Below, piece by piece: positions 46,729 to 50,510 of a stretch of 64,000 nucleotides of DNA. Source of the DNA: Actinomycetota bacterium (GTDB lineage: Bacteria > Actinomycetota > Acidimicrobiia > Acidimicrobiales > Aldehydirespiratoraceae); contig JAPOHW010000014.1 in the NCBI GenBank assembly GCA_029979265.1, forward strand, positions 1 through 64,000. The letters run 5' to 3'. The notes under the pieces are model-generated. The model was not told where the DNA came from. It ran no database searches and worked only from the letters and a program-made list of their open reading frames with translations. Each line of letters opens with the position of its first letter. Within the stretch, counting starts at the first letter, position 1. Both the position numbers and the translations under genes were made by a program.

Positions 46729-46752
46729 CCGCGTTCTGCAGGAGGAGCGGTC

Positions 46753-47334
46753 ATGGCGTGGATCGAACGGATTCCGGACGACGAATGGATCGGCGAGCTC
46801 GAGCCGCTCCGCGAACGGGTCGTGGATCGTGACGCGAACCGGATCGACAACATCATGAGTGTCCACTCACTCAACCCTGCGAGCGTCGCCGCCCACGATG
46901 CGGTGTACCGATCGGCGATGGCGGGTACCAAGACGTTGCGCAAGGTGGAACGAGAGTTGATCGCTTACGTCGTCTCCGACATCAACGGCTGTCACTATTG
47001 ACTCACGCATCACCGGCGCGGTCTGCGCCGACTGCTCAAGGACGATGCACTGCTCGCTCGCATCGATGAAAGCTGGGAAACGGCCGGACTCGGCCCGAAG
47101 CGGACGGCGATGCTCACCTACGCCGTCAAACTCACACGGACACCGGGCGAGATGGTCGAGGCCGACGTCGATGCGCTGCGAGCGGTCGACTTCACCGACC
47201 GCGATGTCCTCGACATCTGCGACGTGACGGCCTACTACGCGTACGCCAATCGGATCGCCGACGGCCTCGGGATCGAGGTGGAAGACTGGTACCCACCGGA
47301 GCCACCGATGGGTCATTGGGGGGACGACAGGTGA
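46753..47334 (+). CDS. AhpD-like peroxidase-related protein, probable selenoprotein (CxxU)
   Basis: The frame from ATG 46753 to TGA 47332-47334 (194 codons) is open except for one TGA at 46999-47001, codon 83. The two halves match one continuous peroxidase-related AhpD/carboxymuconolactone-decarboxylase-family protein. The expected motif is NGCHYC-LTHH; here it reads NGCHY-TGA-LTHH, so the TGA replaces the resolving Cys (C80-x-x-U83). A stem-loop with a GGUCU loop lies 18 nt downstream. AGGAGG at 46740-46745 is a strong ribosome site. The stop overlaps the next gene's GTG, implying that ribosomes reach it. AhpD-type proteins use CxxC as peroxidase/reductant; Sec would raise reactivity. Alternative: a TGC-to-TGA mutation or sequence error. 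Confidence 0.85.
46999..47030 (+). promoter_or_regulatory. Bacterial SECIS-like element
   Basis: After the in-frame TGA (46999-47001) come 12 nt, then the stem CGGCGC (47014-47019), loop GGTCT (47020-47024), and GCGCCG (47025-47030), all six pairs G-C. The loop begins 18 nt after the TGA. The E. coli fdhF element also has GGUCU in its loop at 18 nt after its UGA (from memory). The SelB-binding G-U of the loop is present. The lower stem is poorly paired, as is common outside enterobacteria. Confidence 0.75.
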
Positions 47335-48260
47335 GGTTCTTCACCGATGCCGACATCGGCGCAGCGCTGCCGTGGCCTGCGTTGATCGAATCGATCGAAC
47401 AGATCATGATCGAGCCCGACGCCACTGCGCCGGCTCGGACGCTCCACACGGTGCCCGACGGCAACGGCAACGATGCCTCGTTCCTGTTGAAGCCTGGGTG
47501 GGTCGCTGGGGAGTTGATCGGAGTGAAGGCGGTGACCGTCTTTCCCGACAACGGCGCGCAGGAGCTTCCGATGGTGCAAGCCGGTGTCCTGCTGTTCGAC
47601 GGCACAACGGGATCGCTCGTCGGAGCCTGCGAGGCAAACGTGCTGACCACGCGCCGCACCGCGGCAGCGTCTGCAGTGGCGGCAAAGCGACTCGCCCGAG
47701 CCGATGCCCGAACGCTGCTGGTGGTCGGATCTGGTGCGCTGGCACCGATGGCCGTGCAGGCCCATGCGGCGGTTCGGGACTTCGACGTCATTCGGGTGTG
47801 GGGGCGAGATCGAGCAAAGGCCGCCGCAGTCGTCGATGCAGTTGCTTCAGAGGGCCTGTCGGCCGAGGTGGCCGTCGATCTCGATGCCGCTGTGGCCGAC
47901 GCGGACGTCATCTCCTGCGTCACCGGCGCAACCCAGCCGATCATTCGTGGTGCGTTGCTGCGACCGGGCTCGCACGTCGATCTGATCGGTGGCTTCAATC
48001 ACGCCATGCGAGAAGCCGACGATGACGTCATTCGCCGTGCGTCGGTGTTCGTCGACACCTATGACGATGCGGTGATCGCGGGCGATATCGCGCAGCCCCT
48101 CGAGTCTGGCGTCCTCACCCGAGATGATCTGGCCGCCGACTTGGCCGAGCTCGTCGCCGGTGCCCATCCGGGTCGCAGCCGAGACGACGAGATCACGATG
48201 TTCAAGTCGGCGGGAACGGCACTCGAGGATCTGGCGGCTGCTCGCCTCGCATTCGGCTGA
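47331..48260 (+). CDS. Ornithine cyclodeaminase/mu-crystallin family; likely delta1-pyrroline-2-carboxylate reductase
   Basis: A 309-aa NAD(P)-binding protein of the OCD family: RFFTDADIGAALPW start, GVKAVTVFPDN, ANVLTTRRTAAASAVAAKRLA, the VVGSGALAPMAVQAH nucleotide loop and LIGGFNHAMREADDDVI. GTG 47331 overlaps the preceding stop (GTGA) and GGGGGGAC precedes it. Members reduce delta1-pyrroline-2-carboxylate to proline, or act on ornithine or alanine. Nearby AcnX favours the first. Confidence 0.88.
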   Translation: MRFFTDADIGAALPWPALIESIEQIMIEPDATAPARTLHTVPDGNGNDASFLLKPGWVAGELIGVKAVTVFPDNGAQELPMVQAGVLLFDGTTGSLVGACEANVLTTRRTAAASAVAAKRLARADARTLLVVGSGALAPMAVQAHAAVRDFDVIRVWGRDRAKAAAVVDAVASEGLSAEVAVDLDAAVADADVISCVTGATQPIIRGALLRPGSHVDLIGGFNHAMREADDDVIRRASVFVDTYDDAVIAGDIAQPLESGVLTRDDLAADLAELVAGAHPGRSRDDEITMFKSAGTALEDLAAARLAFG

Positions 48261-48335: not shown

Positions 48336-48746
48336 TCAGCCGGTGGTGATCGTGCCGTCGGGTGCCATCACGACAGCGTCGGCCCTGGCAAGGTCCCGGT
48401 AGGTCGCATCATCGACGGTGAAGATCGGCACGGTGATGTCGTAGAGCTCTTCGGCGACGAGCGCACCGATCACGAGAATCTCGTCGGCGTGCTGCATCAC
48501 GATCCCCGCTGGACCGATCCCGGCTCGGAGGACCTCGGTCAGCACCGACGACCCGCTGCTCGAGCCTCGTCCTGCGGGAAGGAGGAGGATGCGGCCGACG
48601 ATGGACTCCCCGACCTGGGGGTGGGCCTGGTCGATGATGATGCCGGTCCACGGGTCGAGGCCGCCCCAGAAGCTGATCGGTTCTTCGAGATGAAGCATCG
48701 GACCGCGGGCCTCGCCGGCCATCAACACCCGCTCGGCTTCAGGCAT
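48336..48746 (-). CDS. Aconitase X, small (swivel) subunit (DUF126)
   Basis: A 136-aa protein of the AcnX small-subunit family: ISFWGGLDPWTGIIIDQAHPQVGESIVGRILLL then the Ser-rich loop GRGSSSGSSVLTE, which supplies the catalytic Ser. ATG 48746 overlaps the large-subunit stop by 8 bp, as expected for a two-subunit enzyme. In archaea the pair makes a mevalonate-pathway dehydratase; in bacteria most are cis-3-hydroxy-L-proline dehydratases. Confidence 0.88.
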   Translation of the reverse strand: MPEAERVLMAGEARGPMLHLEEPISFWGGLDPWTGIIIDQAHPQVGESIVGRILLLPAGRGSSSGSSVLTEVLRAGIGPAGIVMQHADEILVIGALVAEELYDITVPIFTVDDATYRDLARADAVVMAPDGTITTG

Positions 48747-50007
48747 CGACCCACACACCGTCGTCGCGGACGATCTCGCCGCGTACCGCTGACTCAATGC
48801 ACTCCTCGACCGACCCGAACGCCACGTCGAGGCCCAGATTGCCAGGCGCGTAGTAGGCCCATTTCGCCGAGTCGGTCATGGCAACGCCCTCGACATCCTC
48901 CATGATCGGCGTGATGTAGGTGCAGGTGTCGGTGACGATCTGCACCCCGCTGGCCTCCAAGCGAGCGACCCATCCCCGCAGTGCGATCTCGTTGGCAACA
49001 CTGCGACCGGTGTTGATGTAAAGACGAACATGCGGGTGGACCTGCCGGTCGTCGAGGACATCGACCACCCGCCCGAACTCGGCCACCGAATAATGCGGTG
49101 TCCCCAGACTCACGACCCCGAGCCGGGACGAGGTCGAGGTCGTCAGTTGATCGCGGGCCAGCCGAAGATCGGCGGCCGTCACGACGTGGGTCTCGGCTGC
49201 AGGAGCGCCGCCGAGGGCTGCCTCGAGGGTCGGAGCCTCCGGGGTCGAGCCGACGAAGTGGAACATGGCGAGCGCGCCGGCGGCTGCGCCGGCTGCGCCG
49301 AGGGCCTTGAGGAGATGTTCGGGAACCTGGTCGGGGCCGCCGACCACCACTGGCACCGACCGGCCGACCCGCTTGCCGATGTGATGGCCGAGCAGCGGGT
49401 AGAAGGCGTCGAGGGTGATCAGGCGTTCGGGCACGGCACCCACATCGAATACGACCGTTGCGCGGCGATGTTCGTCGAGATGCAGACCGGCGAGCGGAGC
49501 GCGTCCCGTGATCGCAGCAGAGATGTCGAGGAAATCGCCGTAGCGGTGCGTGCGCGCACCGAGGACCGAGTTGGCGAAGACGATGGCGTTGGACTCGGCC
49601 CAGGCCACGTGCTCGCCCGGGTTCGGGCGGTTGTCGTGTTGGTACGGAGCGCACGTGAAGGTCGGTCGGCAGCCCATGCCTTCGTACAACTCCATCAACA
49701 ATCGTCCCTGTGACGCGGTGTGGGCATCGCCCCGAAAGAGTTCGGGGTGGATCAGGTCGAGCGAGCTGACGTTGAGAGTGGAAGGCACCACCACCTGTGC
49801 ACCGCCCTCGGCGAGACGCCGGGGGAAGTCGACACTCGCCTGCCCGTTGTAGAGGCACGAGTCGATGTGGGCACCGGTGATGTCGACCAACCGCTCGGCC
49901 CGCATCACCTCTGCGGTCCGGCTGACGACGCGCATTGCGAGGGCGGCGGCCGGACCGCCGTCGCCGTTGAGGAGCGCTTGGTCGCGATCGTCGAGGGTGA
50001 GGGGCAT
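48739..50007 (-). CDS. Aconitase X, catalytic subunit (DUF521); likely cis-3-hydroxy-L-proline dehydratase
   Basis: A 422-aa iron-sulfur dehydratase. Landmarks: LTLDDRDQALLNGDGGPA, DITGAHIDSCLYNGQASVDF, TFTCAPYQHDNRPNPGEHVAWAESNAIVFANSVLGARTHRYGD (split signature), PYGH-like region, and VTDTCTYITPIM with a cluster Cys. The pathway is cis-3-Hyp to delta1-pyrroline-2-carboxylate, then the convergent OCD-family gene to proline. TACGGT (plus 50015-50020) lies 7 nt from its ATG. Confidence 0.9.
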   Translation of the reverse strand: MPLTLDDRDQALLNGDGGPAAALAMRVVSRTAEVMRAERLVDITGAHIDSCLYNGQASVDFPRRLAEGGAQVVVPSTLNVSSLDLIHPELFRGDAHTASQGRLLMELYEGMGCRPTFTCAPYQHDNRPNPGEHVAWAESNAIVFANSVLGARTHRYGDFLDISAAITGRAPLAGLHLDEHRRATVVFDVGAVPERLITLDAFYPLLGHHIGKRVGRSVPVVVGGPDQVPEHLLKALGAAGAAAGALAMFHFVGSTPEAPTLEAALGGAPAAETHVVTAADLRLARDQLTTSTSSRLGVVSLGTPHYSVAEFGRVVDVLDDRQVHPHVRLYINTGRSVANEIALRGWVARLEASGVQIVTDTCTYITPIMEDVEGVAMTDSAKWAYYAPGNLGLDVAFGSVEECIESAVRGEIVRDDGVWVDA

Positions 50008-50014
50008 TGGCGTC

Positions 50015-50024
50015 ACCGTAGTCT
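50015..50024. promoter_or_regulatory. Overlapping divergent -10 elements
   Basis: ACCGTAGTCT: the minus strand reads TACGGT (50015-50020), 7 nt before the AcnX start; the plus strand reads TAGTCT (50019-50024), 6 nt before ATG 50031. The two hexamers share two bases, so polymerases must exclude each other. Confidence 0.5.
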
Positions 50025-50030
50025 GACCGC

Positions 50031-50510
50031 ATGGACGCGCAGCCCGAAGCGACGCTTGCAGACGACGAGGCCCAGCTGGCTGCGTTTGCGCTCGACCTCG
50101 GTGATCGCATCGAGGCTGCGATCCCGGACTGGGTCGAGCGTTCACTTCGAGCACGAGGGGGTGCGGCATTCGATGCGGTGGCGGCTGCCGGTGTGGCAGC
50201 TGCGACCGCAGAGGAGGTCATGTCACCGCTTCGCATGGTCCTCGCAGCTGATGTCGATCGTGCTGCGGGCTCCCCGCTGGCGGCGCTGAGAACGGGTGTC
50301 GGCCCGATGACCAGATGTCTGGACGCCTGGGGTGTGCCACGTCCGATGAGGGACGAGTTCCAGCAGCGTCGGTTTCCGAATGATCCGTTCGAACTCGGCC
50401 CGGCGGCCTTCAGCGAGGTCGACCCGTCGCTGCATGAACCGGGACTCGTGTGGGGGGCGGCCCGGGCCCATGTTCACCTTCGACGTCGTCGGGAGGCCGG
50501 CGGTGGCTGA
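50031..50510 (+). CDS. Hypothetical protein (159 aa)
   Basis: A soluble, mostly helical 159-aa protein (MDAQPEATLADDEAQLAAFALDLG...) with a Arg-rich end (RRRREAGGG). Its start is backed by the -10 hexamer 6 nt upstream, and its stop overlaps a short downstream gene. I recognise no family. Possibly specific to this lineage. Confidence 0.65.
   Translation: MDAQPEATLADDEAQLAAFALDLGDRIEAAIPDWVERSLRARGGAAFDAVAAAGVAAATAEEVMSPLRMVLAADVDRAAGSPLAALRTGVGPMTRCLDAWGVPRPMRDEFQQRRFPNDPFELGPAAFSEVDPSLHEPGLVWGAARAHVHLRRRREAGGG

Follow-up and report, generated by a model that had tools for sequence, protein, structure and literature searches.

This locus raises the question of whether a TGA codon located within an otherwise intact gene is decoded as selenocysteine (Sec), or whether it reflects an error or decay, a codon reassigned throughout the genome, or a genuine stop between two functional products. 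In the window, by which we refer to the entire stretch of 64,000 nucleotides that was analysed, the frame extending from 46753 to 47334 on the plus strand is interrupted only by the TGA at 46999-47001, and a reading of this frame shows that its other 192 codons are all sense codons. Beginning with ATG, the frame is comprised of 82 codons, the internal TGA, 110 further codons and a terminal TGA. The internal TGA is codon 83 and it is present within the sequence NGCHY-TGA-LTHH, at the position of the second Cys of the AhpD CxxC motif. The 194-codon frame, open but for one TGA at a motif Cys, which had been described in the first-pass annotation of this DNA, was thus reproduced. That annotation had also pointed to a ribosome site and to an overlap of the stop codon with the start of the next gene, both of which are observed here. 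A ribosome-binding site, AGGAGGAG, is present at 46740-46747 (plus strand), 5 bases upstream of the ATG, and the GTGA at 47331-47334 contains both the terminal TGA and, overlapping it, the GTG start codon of the following gene (47331-48260, plus strand), which was delineated by profile searches. Simple promoter and terminator scans detected neither.

A screen of the window for coding frames interrupted by TGA yielded 384 candidates, among which the codon 83 TGA ranked fourth. By eye, the three candidates that ranked above it had the appearance of gene ends or of an antisense frame.

Family assignment and predicted active site

When read through the TGA, the encoded protein matched the model TIGR01926 ("peroxidase-related enzyme") with a score of 133.5 bits (cut-off 81.8) over residues 31-176, a region that spans the TGA, and it also matched PF02627 (41.8 bits, cut-off 23). 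Based upon this profile match, its homologues and the conservation of the TGA codon, the region 46753-47334 is described as an AhpD-like gene encoding a predicted 193-residue selenoprotein. The score for AhpD proper (TIGR00777) was 25.9 bits, which is under the cut-off of 191.95. The earlier statement that both halves of the frame match this family is borne out by the joined match to TIGR01926 and by the 50 of 107 database homologues (see below) that start right after codon 83, but no Pfam family was found in either the N half or the C half when these were searched separately. The solved structures of two peroxidase-related proteins, 3c1l and 2pfx, align with the window protein over residues 29-180 (E 7.2e-31) and 28-172 (E 6.1e-27), respectively; both alignments cross the break, and both of these proteins have Cys at position 83 whereas the window gene has a predicted Sec. 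We infer a peroxidase activity for the window protein from its family membership.

The match to TIGR00777 places residues 38-93 of the window protein upon positions 88-143 of the model with a constant offset of 50, by which Glu68, Cys80, Tyr82, codon 83 and His87 correspond to residues 118, 130, 132, 133 and 137 of AhpD. In PMC3141380, the AhpD proton relay is described as consisting of Glu118, Cys130, His132, Cys133 and His137, with PA0269 having Tyr in place of His132. The window protein therefore resembles the AhpD of M. tuberculosis and PA0269 at all five of these positions, including the Tyr found in PA0269, but it differs from them in having a TGA (predicted Sec) where they have the second Cys. 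Within the motif of the window protein, CHYU, Cys80 (46990-46992) is the predicted resolving thiol and the equivalent of Cys130; the TGA at 46999-47001 is equivalent to Cys133 and is predicted to encode Sec from the frame and its conservation across loci; and Glu68 (46954-46956) and His87 (47011-47013), all on the plus strand, align with the proton-relay Glu118 and His137 (PMC3141380). In an alignment of 17 proteins none of the five active-site positions varies, position 83 being counted as either TGA (12 proteins) or Cys (5 proteins). By alignment to AhpD, residues Glu68, Cys80, Tyr82, Sec83 and His87 would form a proton-relay active site, in which, judging from AhpD chemistry, Sec83 would attack the hydroperoxide first, Cys80 would resolve the oxidised Sec83 to a selenenylsulfide, which would then be reduced by a thiol partner.

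Conservation of the TGA codon

The distribution of this gene was examined in a set of 395 genomes from one class, taken from record titles (see below) to be Acidimicrobiia, 153 of which contained a homologue at E <= 1e-10. A close homologue (E <= 4.3e-58) containing the TGA was present in 77 of these genomes and one lacking it in a single genome (G306); hence, roughly one class genome in five contains the close form, which almost always carries the TGA. The DNA was read for 50 loci from this class, comprising 44 of the 77 genomes with the close TGA gene (including the window's own), G306, and five from a more distant group. In 49 of these 50 loci a TGA is located at Cys+3, the exception being G306 with TTA, and a TGA at codon 83 was also observed in 29 of 30 class loci, a set which overlaps with both these 50 loci and the 80 described next. 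From named genome records, the best 80 of 204 relatives (out of at least 593 pattern matches) were retained. Within these best 80, which show 60-92% protein identity to the window protein, codon 83 is TGA in 79 and TTA in one, and Cys was not found at this position in any. Since the class loci and the named records overlap, the 124 pooled rows correspond to 107 distinct sequences. Counting by eye from their titles, 62 of the best 80 relatives are from Acidimicrobiia, Acidimicrobiales or Acidimicrobiaceae and 13 are from other actinobacteria (Microthrix, Aldehydirespirator, "Actinomycetes", "Actinomycetota"), with the remainder labelled "bacterium" (4) or Planctomycetaceae (one); the nearest two, showing 92% and 89% identity, are from Acidimicrobiales. 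These names agree with the actinobacterial host that had been proposed from the sequence.

These results bear upon the possibility that the TGA is a mutated or misread Cys codon in a decaying gene or one affected by a sequencing or assembly error. A TGA is only one base removed from TGC or TGT, and one relative has TTA. However, either decay or an error would leave scattered stops, whereas here the same TGA recurs in 79 of the best 80 relatives despite the above divergence in protein sequence, the frame downstream of it is maintained, with at least 96 codons from the TGA to the next stop in close relatives, and the silent sites that follow it are frozen (see next section). The scattered stops in close relatives that would point to decay are thus not observed; the retention of the TGA and of the downstream codons argues against decay, and we regard error or decay as very improbable. 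The sequence with TTA (Leu), from locus L131 of G306 (G306:C116, JAJRYI010000263.1), has an intact hairpin, and a tRNA-Sec is present in this genome. The G306 assembly is 79% complete and consists of about 500 contigs, and a search of it for SelA found none; the TTA may be either a real change or an error of this fragmented assembly.

A search of 5.8 billion proteins gave 633 candidates, of which 107 were homologues at E <= 1e-10. The first-pass annotation had raised the question of whether homologues have Cys at codon 83, and this residue is found in 31 of these 107 proteins, most of which are more distant from the window protein. In terms of its sequence, the window gene is thus a case of an in-frame UGA at a position where homologues have Cys. 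Other residues at this site were Trp (6), Ser (2), Leu (1) and His (1), and the remaining entries were incomplete: 50 consist of a C half that starts right after codon 83, 5 of an N half and 11 of other parts. It had been anticipated that automated annotation would split this gene, and the C and N halves, together with the six proteins bearing Trp, indicate that annotation pipelines do split or mistranslate it.

The same partial entries could be taken to mean that translation really ends at the TGA, either always or by way of a selenium-dependent switch, and that the 82-residue N half and the C half are functional products in their own right; a UGA would, in general, stop translation when selenium is lacking. 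Contrary to this reading, the first in-frame ATG, GTG or TTG after the TGA occurs only at residue 120 (47110), which leaves the C half without a usual start of its own. Further, the invariant CxYU..HH motif straddles the break and the full-length Cys homologues are single proteins. Two separate polypeptides are in our view very improbable.

Beyond the class, 33 of 396 genomes sampled across the phylum were matched at E <= 1e-30; the five best of these all have TGA, and the weaker matches have TGA or, where read, Cys. Placing the Sec label on a phylogenetic tree of 89 of the 129 rows, which omitted half of the 80 close loci, required 5 changes, of which one concerns the Leu row and at least 4 are forced by branches with good support; for the Cys label, 4 changes were required, at least 3 of them similarly forced. 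These changes indicate that Sec and Cys have been interchanged more than once.

A conserved predicted hairpin following the TGA

A predicted bacterial SECIS hairpin, consisting of a 6-bp stem and a GGUCU loop (47020-47024), is present at 47014-47030 (plus strand), beginning 12 nt after the TGA. In the E. coli fdhF SECIS the loop is likewise GGUCU. In 44 sequences that were compared, there is very little variation at the silent sites of the codons located +5 to +9 from the TGA (consensus CGG CGC GGT CTG CGC); the silent-entropy deficit averages 1.47 bits there versus 0.13 bits at 78 other conserved codons. These codons, together with codon +10, form the stem, and 99.2% of the cells for this pairing are paired in the 44 sequences, a value that was reached by none of 500 shuffles. 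The third-base pair 18-30 is always formed in these sequences, although by different bases (GC 31, CG 8, AU 2, GU 2, UA 1).

The peptide encoded here, Arg-Arg-Gly-Leu-Arg-Arg, dictates four of the six pairs, and hence only the two third-base pairs provide independent evidence. Both of them are formed in 106 of the 107 distinct sequences, versus 14.5% expected for random synonymous codons, and the complete six-pair stem is found in 94 of 107 (the TTA row included), versus 9.1% under random synonymous codons, the related sequences in these counts not being independent of each other. The other 13 sequences lack one or more of the six pairs, and the GGTCT loop is present in 106 of the 107. Some other measures gave no signal: the stability of the 62-nt stretch starting from the window TGA is no higher than that of shuffles (z -0.06), changes on both sides are seen in one of the six pairs only, a number no higher than shuffles give (450 of 500), and the Rfam hits near the gene, all to unrelated families, stayed under threshold, with none lying over the hairpin. 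A conserved hairpin sequence is thus found immediately 3' of the UGA, as for a SECIS stem-loop, and its binding by SelB is predicted.

The terminal codon of the same 107 genes is TGA in 82 cases, and therefore UGA would have two different readings within one gene. The hairpin appears to be the visible difference between the internal and the terminal UGA: SelB carrying Sec-tRNA would bind the GGUCU-loop hairpin 12 nt after the internal UGA and insert Sec at codon 83, and the UGA at the end of the gene would terminate translation.

Selenocysteine decoding machinery

The first-pass annotation had named selA, selB, selD and the gene for tRNA-Sec as those to be sought, and all four are present in the same draft genome (3.31 Mb in 105 contigs, 93.7% complete). 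The tRNA-Sec scored 64 bits and has the anticodon TCA (UCA); selA matched TIGR00474 with 383 bits (cut-off 267.9); and the adjacent selB matched TIGR00475 with 302.6 bits (cut-off 242.25) and contains the SelB wing domain PF09107. The selD gene (364.6 bits; C14:6213-7139, minus strand) has its own in-frame TGA, in GAGUGCKL, and a hairpin with a GGUCG loop is predicted about 30 nt beyond it.

These observations also bear upon the possibility that TGA has become a sense codon throughout the genome, as it has in codes 4 and 25. The Trp found at the site in six of the 107 database homologues could suggest this, as if a pipeline had applied another code. On the other hand, TGA terminates most of the AhpD-like genes, as noted above, the host selA also stops at a TGA, which shares one base with the start of selB, and the host tRNA-Sec has a UCA anticodon. 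Such a reassignment is therefore extremely improbable. Accordingly, the recurrence of the TGA, the retained frame and the genes that terminate with TGA led us to reject decay, misassembly and a changed genetic code alike.

Across the class, tRNA-Sec (E <= 1e-8) was detected in 64 of the 77 genomes that carry the close TGA gene, and SelA in 9 of the remaining 13; in the other four, which are 56-75% complete, no SelA was found and the best tRNA match scored 47.4 bits. Matches of 31-48 bits, which are probably other long-arm tRNAs, were not counted as tRNA-Sec, and five of the 13 genomes are narrowly over the family cut-off of 47 (47.2-47.7). The TGA gene and tRNA-Sec are modestly associated (odds ratio 3.1, p 2.7e-4), because tRNA-Sec is common in this class (260 of 395 genomes).

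One family of the class (f34) has genomes of about 1 Mb, with a GC content of 0.29-0.30 in the stretches that were fetched (L074-L078). In the 32 matched genomes of this family, the AhpD-like gene contains one TGA each, and all five fetched loci have a CEYU motif and a GGUC-loop hairpin. A tRNA-Sec is present in all 32 of these genomes and in 9 further genomes of the family for which no AhpD match was listed. From these sequences, this family appears to be a small-genome lineage that has kept Sec decoding.

Decoding of codon 83 and relationship to known selenoproteins

The conservation of the TGA, the frozen and covarying hairpin, the presence of the Sec machinery and the Cys residue in distant homologues together make it very likely that the TGA at codon 83 is decoded as Sec, which would give rise to a CxxU (Cys-His-Tyr-Sec) selenol/thiol peroxidase. 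Proteins of this kind have been reported previously, as the first-pass annotation had stated with reference to selenoproteome surveys. Among the survey reports, 27 AhpD-like CXXU sequences (COG2128) and 4 CMD-domain CXXU sequences are listed from the Sargasso Sea in 2005 (PMC1088965), and the groups AhpD-like 1 (299 sequences) and AhpD-like 2 (70 sequences), both CxxU, in the GOS survey of 2008 (PMC2398784). A 2026 review (PMC13188914) includes an AhpD-like TIGR01926 CxxU family exemplified by MCB9421940.1, and a 2022 review (PMC9312934) places the same protein under COG2128. As AhpD-like CxxU proteins have been catalogued since 2005, the kind is already known; of the earlier description "probable new selenoprotein", the Sec reading is supported but the novelty of the family is not.

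The window gene shares with these AhpD-like COG2128/TIGR01926 selenoproteins the TIGR01926 model, the CxxU motif, the existence of Cys homologues and a stem-loop after the UGA. It differs in that the survey entries are environmental sequences, whereas the window gene is located in a genome possessing the decoding set, conservation at silent sites and covariation support its hairpin, and the close copies found in Acidimicrobiia are nearly all of the Sec form. Neither this near-constant Sec state in Acidimicrobiia nor, judging by titles or the beginnings of abstracts, a selenoprotein study of this class was found in the largely open-access literature searched. A corrected annotation would add a predicted active-site Sec to a group of environmental actinobacteria, and the AhpD-like gene supplies a predicted bacterial SECIS hairpin in which covariation is seen.

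Other AhpD-type genes with TGA in the host genome

PF02627 is found at five places in the host genome, three of which contain a TGA: the window gene, a CPTU gene on contig C15 and a CFYUT gene on contig C20. The first of the other two (L002; C15:29246-29467, minus strand) is an AhpD-core sequence matching TIGR00778 with 42.1 bits (cut-off 27.8), with its TGA at Cys+3. By eye, the TGA is followed by a small GGC-loop hairpin, and its score is under the cut-off of every selenoprotein model. The second (L005; C20:18408-18524, minus strand) is a member of the NCBI selenoprotein model NF041238 (AhpD_rel_CFYUT; 242.1 bits, cut-off 175), and the loop of its hairpin, as seen by eye, is CGUGC. Hence, by this inspection, the GGUCU loop is absent from the hairpins of both these genes. 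The window protein and AhpD_rel_CFYUT both have an AhpD core with CxxU; however, the read-through window protein scored 43.8 bits against NF041238, far below its cut-off, which indicates that it belongs to a distinct subfamily.

Genomic neighbourhood and a possible link to hydroxyproline catabolism

The neighbouring genes were called by codon scores, as greedy longest-ORF calling mostly returned antisense frames given the high GC content. A two-subunit aconitase X (AcnX) is encoded on the minus strand at 48336-50169, consisting of a small (swivel) subunit at 48336-48797 (PF01989, 97.1 bits) and a large subunit at 48739-50169 (PF04412, 441.4 bits), and it adjoins a probable pyrroline-2-carboxylate reductase. 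AcnX is treated as an enzyme class in PMC5144071, and PMC8184944 reports the characterisation of Type-IIa AcnX proteins from several bacteria as cis-3-hydroxy-L-proline dehydratases. Judging from these assignments, AcnX and the probable reductase likely constitute a cis-3-hydroxy-L-proline pathway.

In flanks of up to 4 kb around the best 80 of 204 relatives, the large subunit of AcnX was found 18 times, the small subunit 17 times and the reductase 14 times. It is conceivable, but rather unlikely, that the CxxU protein of Acidimicrobiia is a selenoenzyme dedicated to cis-3-hydroxy-L-proline catabolism, which would serve or protect the iron-sulfur enzyme AcnX and retain Sec83 where the two genes co-occur. 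A connection of an AhpD-like selenoprotein with hydroxyproline or AcnX was not found in the largely open-access literature searched. As AcnX was not detected in 33 of the 77 genomes that carry the close TGA gene, service to this enzyme cannot be the only role of the protein. With these observations, a link between selenium and hydroxyproline breakdown becomes testable. Across the 395 class genomes, AcnX (E <= 1e-30) is present in 44 of the 77 with the close TGA gene versus 28 of the 318 others, corresponding to an odds ratio of 13.8 when kinship is ignored. In at least 13 genomes, belonging to three families, AcnX is located within 1.5 kb of the TGA gene, with a spacing that varies.
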